Source of the DNA: Brachybacterium endophyticum
GTDB taxonomy: Bacteria > Actinomycetota > Actinomycetes > Actinomycetales > Dermabacteraceae
DNA: 64,000 nt
NCBI RefSeq assembly: GCF_003130585.1
Contig: NZ_QFKX01000002.1
Location: 186,001 to 250,000 of the forward strand
Direction: 5' to 3'
Shown piece after piece: positions 1,336 through 49,363 of the stretch. Every line of letters begins with the position of its first letter. Within the stretch, counting starts at the first letter, position 1. The notes below the pieces were generated by a model. That model searched no databases and was not told where the DNA came from. It was given only the letters and a program-made list of their open reading frames with translations. A program made the position numbers and the translations under genes.

Positions 1336-2991
<1,656 letters not shown>

Positions 2992-3130
2992 GATCTTCTC
3001 TCCCTCGCATCGGCTGCAGCCGCCACTCTAGGGACCCGGGCTGGGCGCTGCCGTTCCCGGCCCGGTGCGTGAGATGGGGAGCGTCCACGGCCCGGGAGGC
3101 CCCGTCGGCCCCCGGGATCCGGTCGCGACG

Positions 3131-3985
3131 TCAGCGCAGCAGACGATCCATCCGACGGTCGCTCAGGCGCCGCCCTCCGGTCTGACAGGTCGGGCAGTAC
3201 TGCAGGGAGCGCTCGGCGAAGGAGACCTCGGCGATCCGCGTCCCGCACACCGGGCACTCCTCGCCGGCGCGGCCGTGCACCCGCAGCAATGCCTTCTTCG
3301 CCCGTTTGATGCGATCCAGCGGCAGGCCCGTGAGTCCCTGCGCGGCACGCTCCAGCACCTCGCGCAGAGCCGCGTGCAGATGCACGGCACCCTCGCGGCC
3401 CAGCCCGTCGGCCGCCGCGAAGGGGGAGAGGCGAGCGGTGTGCAGGACCTCGTCGGACCAGGCATTGCCGATGCCCGCGAGCAGCGTCTGGTCGGTGAGG
3501 ACCGTCTTCAGGTGGGAGTGGGTCCCCGTGCAGAGGCGGGCGAAATCATCCGCGTCCACGGCGTCGGCCTCAGGTCCCAGGCGGGCCAGGGTCTCCAGGT
3601 CCTCCGGCGTGGTGCTCGCCCACAGCGCGACCGCCTTGCGGGTGCCCTGCTCGGTGACGTCGAGAGCGGAGTCGTCGTCCCAGACCATCCGCAGGGCGAG
3701 GGGTCCCTTGCGCGGGCCGGGCGGACCGGAGGGGGCCTCGGCGTGGTGACGGAGCCATCCCGCGAGCGCCAGGTGCATGACCAGGGTGACGCCCTCGAGG
3801 TCCAGCAGCAGGTGCTTGCCGCGGCGACGTACTCCCGTGAGCTCGTGACCCGTCAGGTCGGCGAGCGGCGGATCCGCCGTCTTCAGGACGCTGATGGCGG
3901 CGACGTCCACGCCGTGCAGGCGACGCCCCACGAGGAGGCGGTCGATCTGCGCCACGGCGGCGTCGAGCTCCGGCAGTTCCGGCAT
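3131..3985 (-). CDS. Fpg/Nei-family DNA glycosylase
   Basis: Base-excision repair enzyme that removes oxidised bases and nicks the strand. The protein is 284 aa. The N-terminal MPELPEL supplies the catalytic Pro2 and Glu3, RRGKHLLLDL carries the beta-hairpin lysine, and the helix-two-turn-helix region includes LLAGIGNAWSDEVL. The C-terminal zinc finger has a CPVC pair and a CPTC pair. I set the start at 3985 because catalysis needs Pro at position 2, although the frame is open about 50 codons further. A CATACT box 6 nt upstream suggests a leaderless transcript. The sequence cannot tell 8-oxoguanine from pyrimidine specificity. Confidence 0.9.
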   Translation of the reverse strand: MPELPELDAAVAQIDRLLVGRRLHGVDVAAISVLKTADPPLADLTGHELTGVRRRGKHLLLDLEGVTLVMHLALAGWLRHHAEAPSGPPGPRKGPLALRMVWDDDSALDVTEQGTRKAVALWASTTPEDLETLARLGPEADAVDADDFARLCTGTHSHLKTVLTDQTLLAGIGNAWSDEVLHTARLSPFAAADGLGREGAVHLHAALREVLERAAQGLTGLPLDRIKRAKKALLRVHGRAGEECPVCGTRIAEVSFAERSLQYCPTCQTGGRRLSDRRMDRLLR

Positions 3986-3991
3986 GCCACC

Positions 3992-3997
3992 AGTATG
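3992..3997 (-). promoter_or_regulatory. Putative -10 box of a leaderless transcript
   Basis: CATACT on the minus strand ends 6 nt before the ATG of the Fpg/Nei gene, the spacing expected when transcription starts at the initiator codon. There is no Shine-Dalgarno sequence. Confidence 0.45.
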
Positions 3998-4052
3998 AGC
4001 GAGGGCGGACGTGCGAGGAGGAAGAACGCCGCAGGTCCGCGGCCGCGGGAGC

Positions 4053-4562
4053 TCAGGAGGAGGGCACTTCGGGCTTCTGCGTACGGGAGGCGTGCAGCGC
4101 CCCGCGCGGGCCGCGCAGACCGAGGATGAGGACACCGCCCACGAGCAGGTGCATCGCCAGCAGCGCCACGAGCGCTCCGCCGCTGGCTCCCAGCACGATC
4201 GGTCCGAGCAGCGACAGCACCATCACCGCGACGGCGATGATCGTCCAGATCTTCGCACCGCGGGACGCGAATCCGAGAGCCAGGCGCAGAGCCCAGGCGA
4301 GGACTCCCAGCATCAGTATCGCCGGGATGATCGCGCCGGGGTCCACCGAGAAGCTCCCGGCATGCAGGTCCAGTCCCGCGATGGGGGTGGCCAGCACCCA
4401 CACCAGGAGCGCTGCGACCAGCGCGATCACGATCGACAGGCCGGCGCGTGCGGGCCCGGGAGCGCTCGGCGGCACCGGGCGCGGGCCGGACGGGCCGGTG
4501 TTCGGGTCGGAGTCGCCGGTGGGGCGGGACTCGGGGCGGGGCCGGCTCTGTGGGGTCGTCAT
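4053..4562 (-). CDS. Small four-helix membrane protein (DUF6069-like)
   Basis: A 169-aa protein with a Pro/Arg-rich cytoplasmic N-terminus (about 1-38), then four hydrophobic segments (about 42-60, 75-95, 105-125, 130-150) and a short charged tail. The layout resembles the DUF6069 family of actinobacterial membrane proteins; the family call is from memory of that pattern, and no function is known. The ATG lies 5 bp after the TGA of the upstream membrane-protein gene, so the two are probably one transcript. Confidence 0.65.
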   Translation of the reverse strand: MTTPQSRPRPESRPTGDSDPNTGPSGPRPVPPSAPGPARAGLSIVIALVAALLVWVLATPIAGLDLHAGSFSVDPGAIIPAILMLGVLAWALRLALGFASRGAKIWTIIAVAVMVLSLLGPIVLGASGGALVALLAMHLLVGGVLILGLRGPRGALHASRTQKPEVPSS

Positions 4563-7425: not shown

Positions 7426-8058
7426 TCAGCTGAGGGTTCCGGCCTCGGCCATCCGCGCGGCGGCGGTGAGCTCCTCGCCGGTCGAGAGCAGACGGGAGGC
7501 CTGCCGGGTCATGGCCTGCTGCTGTTCGTGGGTGCTCTCGCGATCGGCCAGGTGCGCGGTCCCGTGGGCGCAGAGCACCGCGACCGCGCCCGCGCGGCCG
7601 AGGGCGATCGGCAGGTCCCCGGTGAAGGCACCACGCAGGATCTCGTCCATCGTCGTGCGGACCTGCTCGATGTCCGGAGGCTCGGCGACCCCGGCGAGAT
7701 ACCGCAGCCCCGGGACGGTGTGGGTCCCCTCGCGGAAGCGGCGGCTGACGTCCTCGCCGTTGCGTCGCACCCAGGTGTGCAGGACGTACAACCGCCACAG
7801 CGCCCCCGGCAGCGTGGTCGCCGGCGAGCCCGACCACAGCGTCGCGAGGTCGTCGAGCCCTTCGGACTCCACCAGGTGCAGCACCCGCTCGACGACCTGC
7901 GGATCGGTGCTGCCATACACCCCGTTCAGCAGCGCGCGGGCGCTCTCGTGGCCCAGCTCCGTGGCCAGCTGCGGATCCGGCGCACCGGGGATCTCCTCCG
8001 CGCGCGCAGGGAACAACGGCGCGGGACGGCGGAAGCGGGGCGTGGGATCCGAGGGCAT
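7426..8058 (-). CDS. Conserved actinobacterial protein of unknown function
   Basis: A 210-aa cytoplasmic, mainly helical protein without membrane segments. It contains a Trp-rich centre (ATLWSGSPATTLPGALWRLYVLHTWVRR) that I associate with a family found across Micrococcales, but I cannot name a function. The N-terminus is Pro/Arg-rich (PTPRFRRPAPLFPARAEE). The start is MPSDPTPRF at 8058 because a TACCCT box ends exactly 6 nt before it; the longer frame to 8226 crosses the 61-bp palindrome. It stands alone, facing away from the DUF4126 gene. Confidence 0.7.
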   Translation of the reverse strand: MPSDPTPRFRRPAPLFPARAEEIPGAPDPQLATELGHESARALLNGVYGSTDPQVVERVLHLVESEGLDDLATLWSGSPATTLPGALWRLYVLHTWVRRNGEDVSRRFREGTHTVPGLRYLAGVAEPPDIEQVRTTMDEILRGAFTGDLPIALGRAGAVAVLCAHGTAHLADRESTHEQQQAMTRQASRLLSTGEELTAAARMAEAGTLS

Positions 8059-8177: not shown

Positions 8178-8238
8178 CGATGGCTCCGGGTGAGGGCTCG
8201 ACGCTCCATAGGGGTTGAGACCTCACCCGGAGCCATCG
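8178..8238. repeat. 61-bp palindromic element, copy A
   Basis: Two perfect 18-bp arms, 8178-8195 and 8221-8238 (CGATGGCTCCGGGTGAGG and its reverse complement), flank a 25-bp centre. A second element with the same 61-bp geometry occurs at 48097-48157. It lies between two divergent genes, so it is not simply a shared terminator. A REP-like or small non-autonomous element is possible. Confidence 0.75.
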
Positions 8239-8425: not shown

Positions 8426-9019
8426 ATGGAAGCGCTGATGATGACGCTGGGGTCGGGCTGGGTGAGCGGCCTGCGGCCCTACCTCATGCTGTTCCTGCTC
8501 GGCGCGAGCGGGAGGTTCCTGGGCATCGACCAGGTGCCCGAGGTGATGCAGAGGGCCGACGTCCTGATCATCACGGCGGTGCTGCTGGTCGTCGACTTCG
8601 CGGCCGACAAGATCCCCTTCCTCGACTCCTTCTGGGACGTCGTCCACACGGTCGTGCGCCCCGTCGCCGGTGGCGCGATCGGCTACCTGCTGGGTGGCGA
8701 GAGCGACACCATGAACGCCGTCGTGCTGGCCGTGATCGGAGTCGTCGCAGCCTTCGGAGCCCACGGCGCGAAGTCCGCCACGCGGGCCGTCGTCAACACC
8801 TCACCCGAGCCGGTCTCCAACGTCGCAGTCTCCGGTGTCGAGGACGTCGCGGCCCTGGTCGTCGGCATCCTCGCCATCGCCCTGCCGGTGCTGGCCGGGG
8901 TGATCGCCGTCGTCCTGCTGCTCGTCGGCGGATACCTGATCTACCGCGCGCTGCGGATCTGGTCGCGGGTGCGGGCGCGACGCCGGGCGAGGGAAGCCGG
9001 GAGCGTCGCCGCGGGGTGA
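8426..9019 (+). CDS. DUF4126-type membrane protein
   Basis: A 197-aa integral membrane protein. Features of the DUF4126 family are the N-terminal GLRPYLMLFLLG segment, a central VVDFAADKIPFLDSFWD stretch that reads as a short conserved loop between helices, and a Gly/Ala-rich second half with PVAGGAIGY. About five to six hydrophobic segments are followed by a basic tail (RVRARRRAREAG). The biochemical role of the family is unknown. Met5 and Met6 are alternative starts, but ATG 8426 fits the leaderless spacing. Confidence 0.82.
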   Translation: MEALMMTLGSGWVSGLRPYLMLFLLGASGRFLGIDQVPEVMQRADVLIITAVLLVVDFAADKIPFLDSFWDVVHTVVRPVAGGAIGYLLGGESDTMNAVVLAVIGVVAAFGAHGAKSATRAVVNTSPEPVSNVAVSGVEDVAALVVGILAIALPVLAGVIAVVLLLVGGYLIYRALRIWSRVRARRRAREAGSVAAG

Positions 9020-25189: not shown

Positions 25190-25308
25190 CGCACCTCAGG
25201 TTCCCGGGGCGAGCGCCCGCGGTCGCTGCACGCGTCCGGCGAGGGCGGCGTCGCCGTTGGTCTCGATTTACGCACCAGCCTATACGCGAAATTCCTCGGA
25301 CTGCAGGC

Positions 25309-25352
25309 CGGGAGGGGGTGGAGCGTGCGGGATCACGCTCCACCCCCTCCCG
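25309..25352 (-). terminator. Perfect 19-bp stem terminator of the Gfo/Idh gene
   Basis: The arms 25309-25327 and 25334-25352 are fully complementary with a 6-nt loop, starting 12 bp after the stop at 25364. It is the strongest hairpin in the window. Confidence 0.8.
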
Positions 25353-25363
25353 GTCGCTGCTGG

Positions 25364-47648: not shown

Positions 47649-48005
47649 GTGATGGCCGACCAGCCCGATGGGACGGTCCTGGTGGTCGAGAACATCGGCC
47701 CCCATGTCTGCTCGTTCTTCATGGGCGGATGGGGGACCAACGCCCTGGGATGGGCCGAGGAAGCAGCCGAGCTGCTCGAGGAATCCGACTTCCCCCACCG
47801 GATGGCATCGAACCTCTTCCTCGCCGACGGGACCGTCGTCGGCCGGGTCCTGACGCAGTTCGGCGACACCCCTGGTGGCTTCAGTGCACGCCTGACGGTC
47901 TATCTCCCCGCCGCGTGCTCGCAGGACGTCCTCGAGCATCATCTGCGGCACTTCGGGGTCGAGTTCCACAACTGGATCCTCGCGGCGGATGCGAACCGGC
48001 GCTGA
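47649..48005 (+). CDS. Unrecognised small protein, possibly a gene fragment
   Basis: A 118-aa soluble protein (GTG 47649, or ATG 47652). It has one Trp/Gly-rich stretch (SFFMGGWGTNALGWAEEAAELLEES) and a strand-rich C-terminal half (LFLADGTVVGRVLTQFGDTPGGFSARLTVYLP). No ribosome site precedes the start. The frame continues upstream as LLRAHPEHYV, also protein-like, up to the point where the CocE remnant on the other strand begins, so its true N-terminus may be lost too. I know no family. Confidence 0.45.
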   Translation: MMADQPDGTVLVVENIGPHVCSFFMGGWGTNALGWAEEAAELLEESDFPHRMASNLFLADGTVVGRVLTQFGDTPGGFSARLTVYLPAACSQDVLEHHLRHFGVEFHNWILAADANRR

Positions 48006-48096: not shown

Positions 48097-48157
48097 CGAT
48101 GGCTCACCGTGAGGCCTCACGGCCCAGGGGAGGCTGAGCCCTCACCAGGAGCCATCG
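48097..48157. repeat. 61-bp palindromic element, copy B
   Basis: Same length and geometry as copy A at 8178-8238: identical outer arms CGATGGCTC (48097-48105) and GAGCCATCG (48149-48157), inner GTGAGG (offset 12) and CCTCACC (offset 43). The TTC before and G after are also shared. It sits in the 248-bp gap between the orphan ORF and the converging amidohydrolase gene. The inner arms pair less well than in copy A. Confidence 0.72.
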
Positions 48158-48253: not shown

Positions 48254-49363
48254 TCACCGGATCCGCTCGCCGGCGATCCAGACCCCCGCGATGCCGCGGG
48301 TCGCGGTGATGTCCGTGGTCGGGTCGCCGTCCACCAGCAGCAGGTCGGCGCGCTTGCCGGGGGCGATGACGCCGCGGTCCTCGAGGCCGAAGGTCTGCGC
48401 CGGCAGCGAGGTGGCGCTGCGCAGCACCTCGAGCGGGGTGAGCCCGGCCTCGACCAGGAGCTCCAGCTCGTCGTGCATCGACTCGCCGTGGCGCGGGGCG
48501 AACGGGGCGCCGGGCGCAGAGTTCGCGTCCGTGCCGGCGAGCAGGCGGATGCCGTGGTCGTGGAAGCGGGAGACGCTCGCGCGGGCGGCGTCGTAGCGCA
48601 GGCCCTGATCGGCGCGCAGGCCGGCGACGCCCCTCATCATGGTCAGCGTGGGGGAGGAGACCATGCGCTGGGCCGCCATGCGGTCCACCGAGGCCTCGTC
48701 CAGGACGTCGTCCAGCGGTGCGTGCGTACTGATGTCGACGCCGGCGTCGATGGCGACGTGGAACGCGCCGGTGGTCACCGAGTGCGCGACGACCAGCAGT
48801 CCGTGGGCGTGCGCGGCTTCGACGATCGCCCGCACGGTCTCGGGCGCCATGCCCTCCGGGGGCTCGGCCTCGGTGACGATCTTGATGTAGTCGGCGCCGT
48901 CCGCGATGCGGGTCTCGACGAATCCGCGCGCCTGCTCGGGTGCCGTGAGGATGCCGCCGGCCGGGAAGCCGGGCATGCGGGCGTGGTTGCCACCGGGGCC
49001 GACGGCCGGCGTCATCGCGCTGAGCATCTGCGTGGTGCCGCGCAGCTCACGCATCTCGCGGACGTGCTCGGCGGGCCAGGCCGCCATGTCCAGGCCCGTG
49101 GTCACGCCCCAGGCGGCGAGGTCGTCGAGGTCCTGGCGTCCCAGCGTGTGCATGTGGGAGTCGATGAGGCCGGGCAGCAGCACCTTCCCCCGGCCGTTGA
49201 CGCGCGAGCTCGAACCGTCGGCGCGCGAGCTCGATCCTCCGCCGGGCCCGAGGTCTCCCGTGTCCCCGATCGTCCCGTCGACGATCACGACGTCCTGCGG
49301 CTCGCTGAGGCCCTCACCGGTGAAGACCCGGGCTCCTTCGATGACTGTCACCTGGTCCGACAT
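48254..49363 (-). CDS. Amidohydrolase-superfamily metal-dependent hydrolase
   Basis: A 369-aa protein of the imidazolonepropionase/dihydroorotase-like amidohydrolases. After an N-terminal composite-domain strand set it has the metal motif HMH (His70, His72) in LIDSHMHTLG. YIKIVTEAEPPEGM holds the candidate bridging lysine, VVAHSVTTGAFHVAI another histidine, and LLAGTDANSAPGAPF the catalytic aspartate. A Ser/Arg-rich insert at 41-57 (GGGSSSRADGSSSRVNG) is encoded by a short direct DNA repeat. GAGGAG precedes the start. The substrate (prolidase- or atrazine-type) cannot be told. Confidence 0.88.
   Translation of the reverse strand: MSDQVTVIEGARVFTGEGLSEPQDVVIVDGTIGDTGDLGPGGGSSSRADGSSSRVNGRGKVLLPGLIDSHMHTLGRQDLDDLAAWGVTTGLDMAAWPAEHVREMRELRGTTQMLSAMTPAVGPGGNHARMPGFPAGGILTAPEQARGFVETRIADGADYIKIVTEAEPPEGMAPETVRAIVEAAHAHGLLVVAHSVTTGAFHVAIDAGVDISTHAPLDDVLDEASVDRMAAQRMVSSPTLTMMRGVAGLRADQGLRYDAARASVSRFHDHGIRLLAGTDANSAPGAPFAPRHGESMHDELELLVEAGLTPLEVLRSATSLPAQTFGLEDRGVIAPGKRADLLLVDGDPTTDITATRGIAGVWIAGERIR

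Follow-up and report, generated by a model that had tools for sequence, protein, structure and literature searches.

Dispersed palindromes of Brachybacterium endophyticum and a palindrome-bracketed gene for a predicted AbiEi–Vsr-type nuclease

The window analyzed here, a 64-kb stretch of the Brachybacterium endophyticum draft genome (G000:C10:186001-250000), carries two 61-bp palindromes 40 kb apart. A sequence-only reading had regarded them as a dispersed repetitive element. Both palindromes were recovered as window inverted repeats I1 and I7 (Table 1), and the perfect 18-bp arms attributed to copy A lay inside 25-nt arms with 92% complementarity. The arms of copy B comprised 23 nt with 83% complementarity in the inverted-repeat scan of the window. 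Exact CGATGGCTC occurred in the 64 kb solely at the four arm ends of copies A and B. Codon-usage gene calls agreed with the earlier placement of copy A between divergent genes and of copy B between convergent genes. Neither the spaced pattern nor the covariance model R1 detected a further copy of this type in the window, and the palindrome type of the second B. endophyticum nuclease (described below) was also absent from it. At window positions 25308-25353, an inverted repeat with perfect 20-bp arms around a 6-nt loop resembles an ordinary terminator hairpin.

Table 1. Coordinates of the two palindromes, their half-sites, and their neighboring genes in the window
Feature	Position	Strand	Composition or source
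Copy A, solo palindrome	8178..8238	.	Half-site CGATGGCTCCGGGTGAGGGCTC, 17-bp center, half-site GAGACCTCACCCGGAGCCATCG
Copy A, left half-site (22 nt)	8178..8199	+	Pattern and half-site searches
Copy A, right half-site (22 nt)	8217..8238	-	Pattern and half-site searches
Gene left of copy A, without Pfam match	7426..8058	-	Codon-usage gene calls, Pfam scan
Gene right of copy A, DUF4126	8426..9019	+	Codon-usage gene calls, Pfam scan
Copy B, solo palindrome	48097..48157	.	Left half-site diverged to CGATGGCTCACCGTGAGGCCTC
Copy B, left half-site	48097..48118	+	Pattern and half-site searches
Copy B, right half-site	48136..48157	-	Pattern and half-site searches
Gene left of copy B, without Pfam match	47649..48005	+	Codon-usage gene calls, Pfam scan
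Gene right of copy B, amidohydrolase	48254..49363	-	Codon-usage gene calls, Pfam scan

The palindrome family in B. endophyticum and its relatives

In the 3.55-Mb draft genome (17 contigs), the spaced pattern matched 17 sites, as compared with none for a backward-read control, and the covariance model R1, built from those 17 sites, identified 18 sites (36 matches over the two strands). The palindrome family is far above chance in B. endophyticum. The whole-genome search thus returned neither just two copies nor a family missing from relatives, and the proposal of a REP- or MITE-like element dispersed in this lineage was borne out by the 18 copies and by the presence of the family in related genomes. 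The searches demonstrated a fixed anatomy. All 18 copies have a 61-bp core in which two 22-nt half-sites (consensus CGATGGCTCCnGGTGAGGnCTC) enclose a 17-bp center of variable sequence and constant length. This center is AT-rich in GC-rich genomes, the AT content of its five middle positions amounting to 57–83% in 35 copies from four genomes, and many copies are flanked by GCC on one edge and GAACG on the other. Half-sites were nearly always paired, 35 of the 37 half-site matches lying inside the 18 full copies; of the other two, one was a lone half-site beside another copy (C11:162623) and one, with three mismatches, was probably a chance match. At the former place (G000:C11:162623-162870; L063 7624-7871), the lone half-site precedes two full copies, separated by 146 bp, which have in common an odd right arm, CCTCAGGGGGAGCCAT, and resemble a local duplication.

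According to the codon-usage gene calls, 18 of 18 copies were intergenic: the adjoining genes diverge at two sites, converge at four, and run in the same direction at 12, so that the family is not tied to one gene orientation, as the sequence-only reading had supposed from two copies. The scanned neighbor genes were unrelated to one another and mostly had housekeeping or metabolic functions, e.g., CrgA, EF-Ts, an amino-acid-kinase family gene, and glutamate dehydrogenase. The B. endophyticum consensus had no match in the genome_contigs and viral_contigs collections, both of which may omit the B. endophyticum genome itself.

Within the genus, a wider model matched 13 of 38 Brachybacterium genomes, including 12 of the 33 good ones. 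This model gave 18 sites in B. endophyticum, eight in G043, six in B. subflavum CFH 10395 (G017), and four in B. halotolerans MASK1Z-5 (G041), and G016 and G002 had 28 matches each, corresponding to at least 12 and at least 11 sites. Some matches of R1 that looked by eye like ordinary hairpins, among them L037, L038, L040, L043, and L049, were excluded from the counts. Individual sites differed between species: the B. endophyticum copy at L054 had no counterpart in the corresponding intergenic region of G043, G041, or G017, and a copy common to G043 and G041 was absent from B. endophyticum. Other sites were common across species (L064 with G043; L062 with G017 and not with G041). No target-site duplication was seen at the compared empty and filled sites, the flanks of which were too diverged to define exact ends.

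Variation at one site extended to a gene. At L197 (positions 400-1586; G041:C7), two palindromes of a second family, described below, enclose a putative esterase gene (PF00756), and the corresponding site in G043 and G017 has one palindrome with both flanks aligning. One palindrome as opposed to two at this site indicates that a gene can be gained or lost with palindromes as the boundaries; the comparison could equally reflect gain of the esterase gene in G041 or its recombinational loss in G017 and G043. Separately, in L099 of G043, 1.19 kb (positions 2868-4053) is missing at the matching place in G017 and ends approximately 30 bp from a shared palindrome. In L101 (4120-4210; G041:C3), a palindrome is adjoined by long runs of G and of C, probably an assembly artifact.

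Nuclease genes between matched palindromes

Two copies of the B. endophyticum family lie 1.4 kb apart at C1:823449-824924 and bracket one nuclease gene, next to which lie dtd and an APH-like gene; the scan of that locus detected no AbiEii toxin gene. The encoded protein contained an N-terminal AbiEi_4 domain (PF13338; 32.9 bits, cut-off 25) and matched the MTES_1575 Vsr-type nuclease domain (PF18741) at an E-value of 1.2e-7, below the cut-off of that family. MTES_1575 matched 10 of 10 further proteins, three of them above the cut-off, and AbiEi_4 was above its cut-off in two of these, below it in two, and without a match in six. A set of residues (E, D, ExD, H, and DxxRD), which we take to be the catalytic pattern of Vsr/EDxHD nucleases, was invariant in the 32 proteins of alignment A7. 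Of these proteins, five come from outside the genus and 27 from the first batch of 30 genus loci, with none from the second batch (see below); the alignment leaves out three of the first batch, as it omits those of G023 (gene apparently split), G041 (stop inside the gene), and L116, the first two of which remain among the 49 loci analyzed below.

The predicted structure of the nuclease had a mean pLDDT of 89 and a pTM of 0.85. In VIA-align, its C-terminal domain resembled the homing nuclease I-Bth0305I (Z 11.2, rmsd 2.6, 96 aligned residues) and Vsr (Z 9.7, rmsd 2.5, 100 aligned). Foldseek returned no match at an E-value of 0.001 or better, its first match being the AbiEi antitoxin 6y8q (E 6.3e-3), which was a weak match in VIA-align (Z 5.5, rmsd 5.2, 160 aligned) with a similar fold over residues 40-208; the AbiEi assignment draws on a weak structural match together with Pfam. 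PADLOC likewise gave weak AbiEi matches. AbiEi proteins autoregulate by binding inverted repeats (PMC7319586). The enzyme that the sequence-only reading had expected to be linked to the repeats was thus present, as a gene bracketed by two copies, but it was of another kind than the anticipated REP-associated transposase, combining an AbiEi-type helix with a Vsr-like nuclease. A RAYT link was rejected, as Y1_Tnp (PF01797) had no match in B. endophyticum and the positive control was found in five of 14 genomes.

We next compared nuclease loci across the genus. In G002, G001, and G012, palindrome copies were 1.1–1.3 kb apart; the nuclease gene lay beside the palindromes in G001 and G002, and that of G012 was on another contig, again beside a palindrome. 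A search of the genus with the protein sequence yielded 72 matches spread over 35 of the 38 genomes, 15 of which carried a match of the close group (>150 bits). Fifty of the 72 matches were taken, and omission of L225, which is cut by a contig end, left 49 loci. Among the first 30 loci, 19 had mutually similar palindrome pairs and three more combined one palindrome with a partner that had diverged (scores 26-43); of the rest, two were one-sided, one was unclear, and five had no palindrome near the gene (one of these near a contig end). Long palindromes adjoined nuclease genes of very different lineages in this set. In the second batch of 20 loci, nine scored 26 or higher and one scored 22, and the others mostly had one long palindrome. 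This second batch contained a second small nuclease gene of the family from B. endophyticum (L206, G000:C11:290500-295100, positions 1824-3114), which carries a quite different palindrome, of the GGACTAATAGCGCATCATCTGC type, on both sides.

Matched cassettes were found at 29 of the 49 genus loci, spanning 1.1–1.7 kb, with 16 direct and 12 inverted pairs and one tie; 20 loci were without a matched pair. Under the same limits, none of 158 other genes (600–1500 bp) lay between matched palindromes, and five of 5000 random intervals did so, all five on the B. endophyticum nuclease cassette itself. Palindrome similarity tracked nuclease similarity (Mantel r 0.37, p 0.0005), although the 29 cassettes and this test do not represent fully independent cases, since the G001 and G020 cassettes are near-identical and those of G017 and G041 are similar. 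These comparisons demonstrated recurrence of the bracketed gene and co-divergence of palindrome and nuclease, and the association between them is well supported at the level of sequence.

A second covariance model, built from four palindromes flanking a second, distant nuclease of G017 and G041 and from one solo palindrome, identified 14 sites in G017, 10 in G041, and four in G043. It further matched two sites in G039, one of them beside the nuclease gene of that genome, and one weak site in G003; the other 33 genus genomes, including B. endophyticum, had none. An exact pattern for this family had no match in four genomes, the sites being found by the covariance model. Nuclease flanks thus predicted a dispersed family in the same genomes.

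Palindromes and close nucleases did not always occur together. Six genomes with own-type (R2) palindromes had no close nuclease above 150 bits (G017, G041, G043, G007, G010, and G018), and R2 palindromes were missing from eight of the 15 genomes that carry a close nuclease, most of these eight having other palindromes beside the gene. Twelve of the 15 close nucleases were located in shared flanking DNA, indicating a gene that is mostly inherited in place and mostly does not hop; that of B. endophyticum was at another locus, and two shared a third. Such inheritance in place is closer to the behavior of RAYTs than to that of free insertion sequences, and a regulatory role, considered below, would also be compatible with it.

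Outside the genus, the nuclease domain was present in 42 of 118 genomes of the class (B. endophyticum included). Nine of 25 short-nuclease loci had a matched palindrome pair at the gene ends (scores 31-45), the palindromes of several loci overlapping open-frame ends and three of the 25 loci being cut by contig ends, and several more of the 25 had one palindrome. Among 25 loci of giant proteins with the nuclease domain, none showed a pair of palindromes in the 1.5 kb around the domain, which lie mostly inside the giant gene. The nuclease gene is rare on plasmids and phages: one of 72,556 plasmid records matched the B. endophyticum protein and three matched another protein used as a query, and one of 50,697 phage records matched. 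Two of the four plasmid loci had matched pairs, those of Tsukamurella tyrosinosolvens (score 27), in which the annotated nuclease gene is short, and Arthrobacter sp. ERGS1:01 (score 25). In Arthrobacter sp. StoSoilB13, a nuclease gene on one replicon adjoins one palindrome, and a solo copy of the same type lies on the other replicon, which carries its own nuclease gene with a single palindrome of another type. The first type matched 32 places on the two replicons, i.e., at least about 16 sites, since a palindromic query may count one site on both strands; at an E-value of 1e-5 it was found in no other plasmid record. With Arthrobacter as the third, dispersed solo copies were demonstrated for three nuclease lineages.

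Arm symmetry and competing explanations

The arms were then compared within and between species. Arm covariation within B. endophyticum (0.102) was close to that of shuffled sequences (0.109), and the p-values for arm coupling were 0.14 in B. endophyticum, 0.045 in G017 (six copies), 0.004 in G043 (eight copies), and 0.33 in G041 (three copies). Between species (alignment A2), covariation was 0.302 as compared with 0.153 after shuffling, a value reached in none of 500 shuffles; A2 includes related rows, an ordinary hairpin (L060:6515) in two of its 62 rows, and most sites on both strands, so that its covariation figures lean towards symmetry. The consensus depended on the species, being GATGGCTCCnGG in B. 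endophyticum and mostly GATGTCGCTGGG in G043, G017, and G041, and the GATGTCGCTGGG form was found in G043 also at a site common to G043 and B. endophyticum. Arms that change together between species and not within B. endophyticum are expected of a symmetric protein site, and half-sites following the preference of a changing protein would yield a species-specific consensus. The sequence-only reading had left the choice between conserved RNA and protein binding; the RNA alternative lost ground, as the arms did not covary within the genome and tRNA was the sole Rfam match in the window at gathering scores, and predicted protein binding is the better reading. A structured RNA of a known family was accordingly dropped as a candidate.

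With moderate confidence, we consider the window palindromes to be solo members of a family whose presumed parent cassette is that at C1:823449-824924, in a system that resembles REP/RAYT but is based on a nuclease of unrelated origin. The AbiEi-like N-terminal domain would, as a dimer, read the two conserved half-sites, and the Vsr/EDxHD-type C-terminal domain would cut at or near the palindrome, perhaps in its AT-rich center. Repair of the break from another copy would spread copies, would overwrite old copies with the current consensus (concerted evolution at shared sites) while keeping the length fixed, and could carry a gene lying between two palindromes, above all the nuclease gene, into a site with a single palindrome. 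A homing-type nuclease would thereby take the place of the Y1 transposase in a REP/RAYT-like scheme. We infer the reading, cutting, and repair steps and the mobility of this system. A wider proposal, which we put forward tentatively, is that of a selfish element class widespread in actinobacteria, in which a single AbiEi–Vsr gene bracketed by its own palindromic sites homes and homogenizes them by cut-and-repair, the sites co-evolve with the nuclease, and host genes between palindromes are picked up or dropped.

The most serious competitor, which we regard as unlikely, is a DNA-binding regulator or chromosome-organizing factor for which the palindromes would be fixed operator or architecture sites, the nuclease domain being secondary or idle. 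Such a role would suit symmetric, conserved half-sites at fixed spacing, a nuclease locus that 12 of the 15 genomes have in common, some sites found in more than one species, and the autoregulation of AbiEi proteins through inverted repeats (PMC7319586). It accords poorly with the four of 18 B. endophyticum sites between convergent genes, with scanned neighbors that are unrelated, with the gain and loss of sites between relatives, and with nuclease residues invariant in all 32 aligned proteins. More improbable is an anti-phage or toxin-antitoxin system in which the palindromes would label the host or regulate the gene. The AbiEi-like domain and the weak PADLOC matches point in that direction, but cassettes of 1.1–1.7 kb offer little room beside a nuclease gene of approximately 0.9 kb, the B. 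endophyticum neighbors are dtd and an APH-like gene rather than an AbiEii toxin gene, and the 16 remote copies would be left without a reason.

Look-alike bidirectional terminators or structured RNAs are very improbable as an explanation. Single-strand folding was strong for copy A (z -10.6) and all 18 B. endophyticum copies are intergenic, but copy B folded poorly (z -2.2), arms did not covary within B. endophyticum, two of the 18 sites lie between divergent genes, and both the sequence family and the link to a nuclease would go unexplained. The terminator reading was dropped on copy folding and gene orientations, in line with the earlier doubt that the palindromes have a common gene-linked function such as termination. 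Least credible of all is that a Y1 transposase moves the palindromes as REP or IS200/IS605-derived elements: the layout of REPs flanking RAYT genes (PMC3733652) is similar, but the B. endophyticum genome lacks a Y1_Tnp match under a control that was positive elsewhere.

Comparison with known systems

REP-type palindromes are common in bacteria, and to our knowledge their only known cognate enzymes are Y1 transposases. The consensus of RAYT-associated repeats is species-specific and co-diverges with the enzyme, the gene of which is mostly inherited in place. The system of putative cassettes described here is similar in each of these respects, as well as in its many dispersed extragenic palindromes in one genome (18, all intergenic) and in an enzyme gene flanked by its own repeats (29 of 49 loci, with a different enzyme). 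It differs in that the AbiEi-helix and Vsr-like nuclease is unrelated to Y1/HUH transposases and in that the palindromes are approximately 55–80 bp long and number in the tens. A REP unit has 20–40 bp and a GTAG or CGTC tag at one end, whereas the 61-bp core here shows no such tag by eye. REPs often exceed 100 per genome (PMC2817692), and CGTC-tagged REPs are reported without a dedicated transposase (PMC3733652). In open full texts, we found none that links such a nuclease gene to dispersed palindromes, an earlier description being possible; this kind of selfish repeat system in actinobacteria is apparently undescribed.

The predicted C-terminal fold (Z 11.2 over 96 residues) and the invariant acidic and His residues are shared with the EDxHD homing endonuclease I-Bth0305I and with Vsr, from which the protein differs by its fusion to an AbiEi-like DNA-binding part and by its link to dispersed palindromes rather than to introns or mismatch repair. 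The gene of a homing endonuclease inserts at the site that its product cuts; here, the cassettes are bracketed by the palindrome, the predicted site of cutting, and at one palindrome site either G041 gained the esterase gene or its relatives lost it. The N-terminal winged helix, with its similar fold over residues 40-208, recalls AbiEi antitoxins of type IV AbiE systems, a family that binds inverted repeats (PMC7319586), but a nuclease domain is added here and no toxin gene adjoins the B. endophyticum copy. MTES_1575 (PF18741) proteins have the same nuclease domain family, described from a giant fused HEPN/helicase protein (PMC3710099), in contrast to the single gene of about 310 codons within a palindrome cassette.

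If the proposed scheme is true, a restriction-type nuclease would have independently invented the REP/RAYT way of life, and the existence of another enzyme class, unrelated to the first and equipped with palindromes of its own, would show more than one origin of such a strategy. It would also give a role to uncharacterized AbiEi/DUF559-type genes in actinobacteria, and the many matched nuclease–site pairs could allow DNA recognition to be decoded. The reading is directly testable, as each cassette predicts its own target.

Two other kinds of palindrome were observed outside the genus. Palindromes in L041 and L051 (G030, of the same order and another family) had GGCTCAGGGTGGCC arms that partly match the outer motif of the window element. 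In Helcobacillus massiliensis, an orthologous gene has near it a palindrome of 62 bp (CCCGTTGAATGCGTTTCAGCGC...; L076, 756-817), which possibly belongs to another family.
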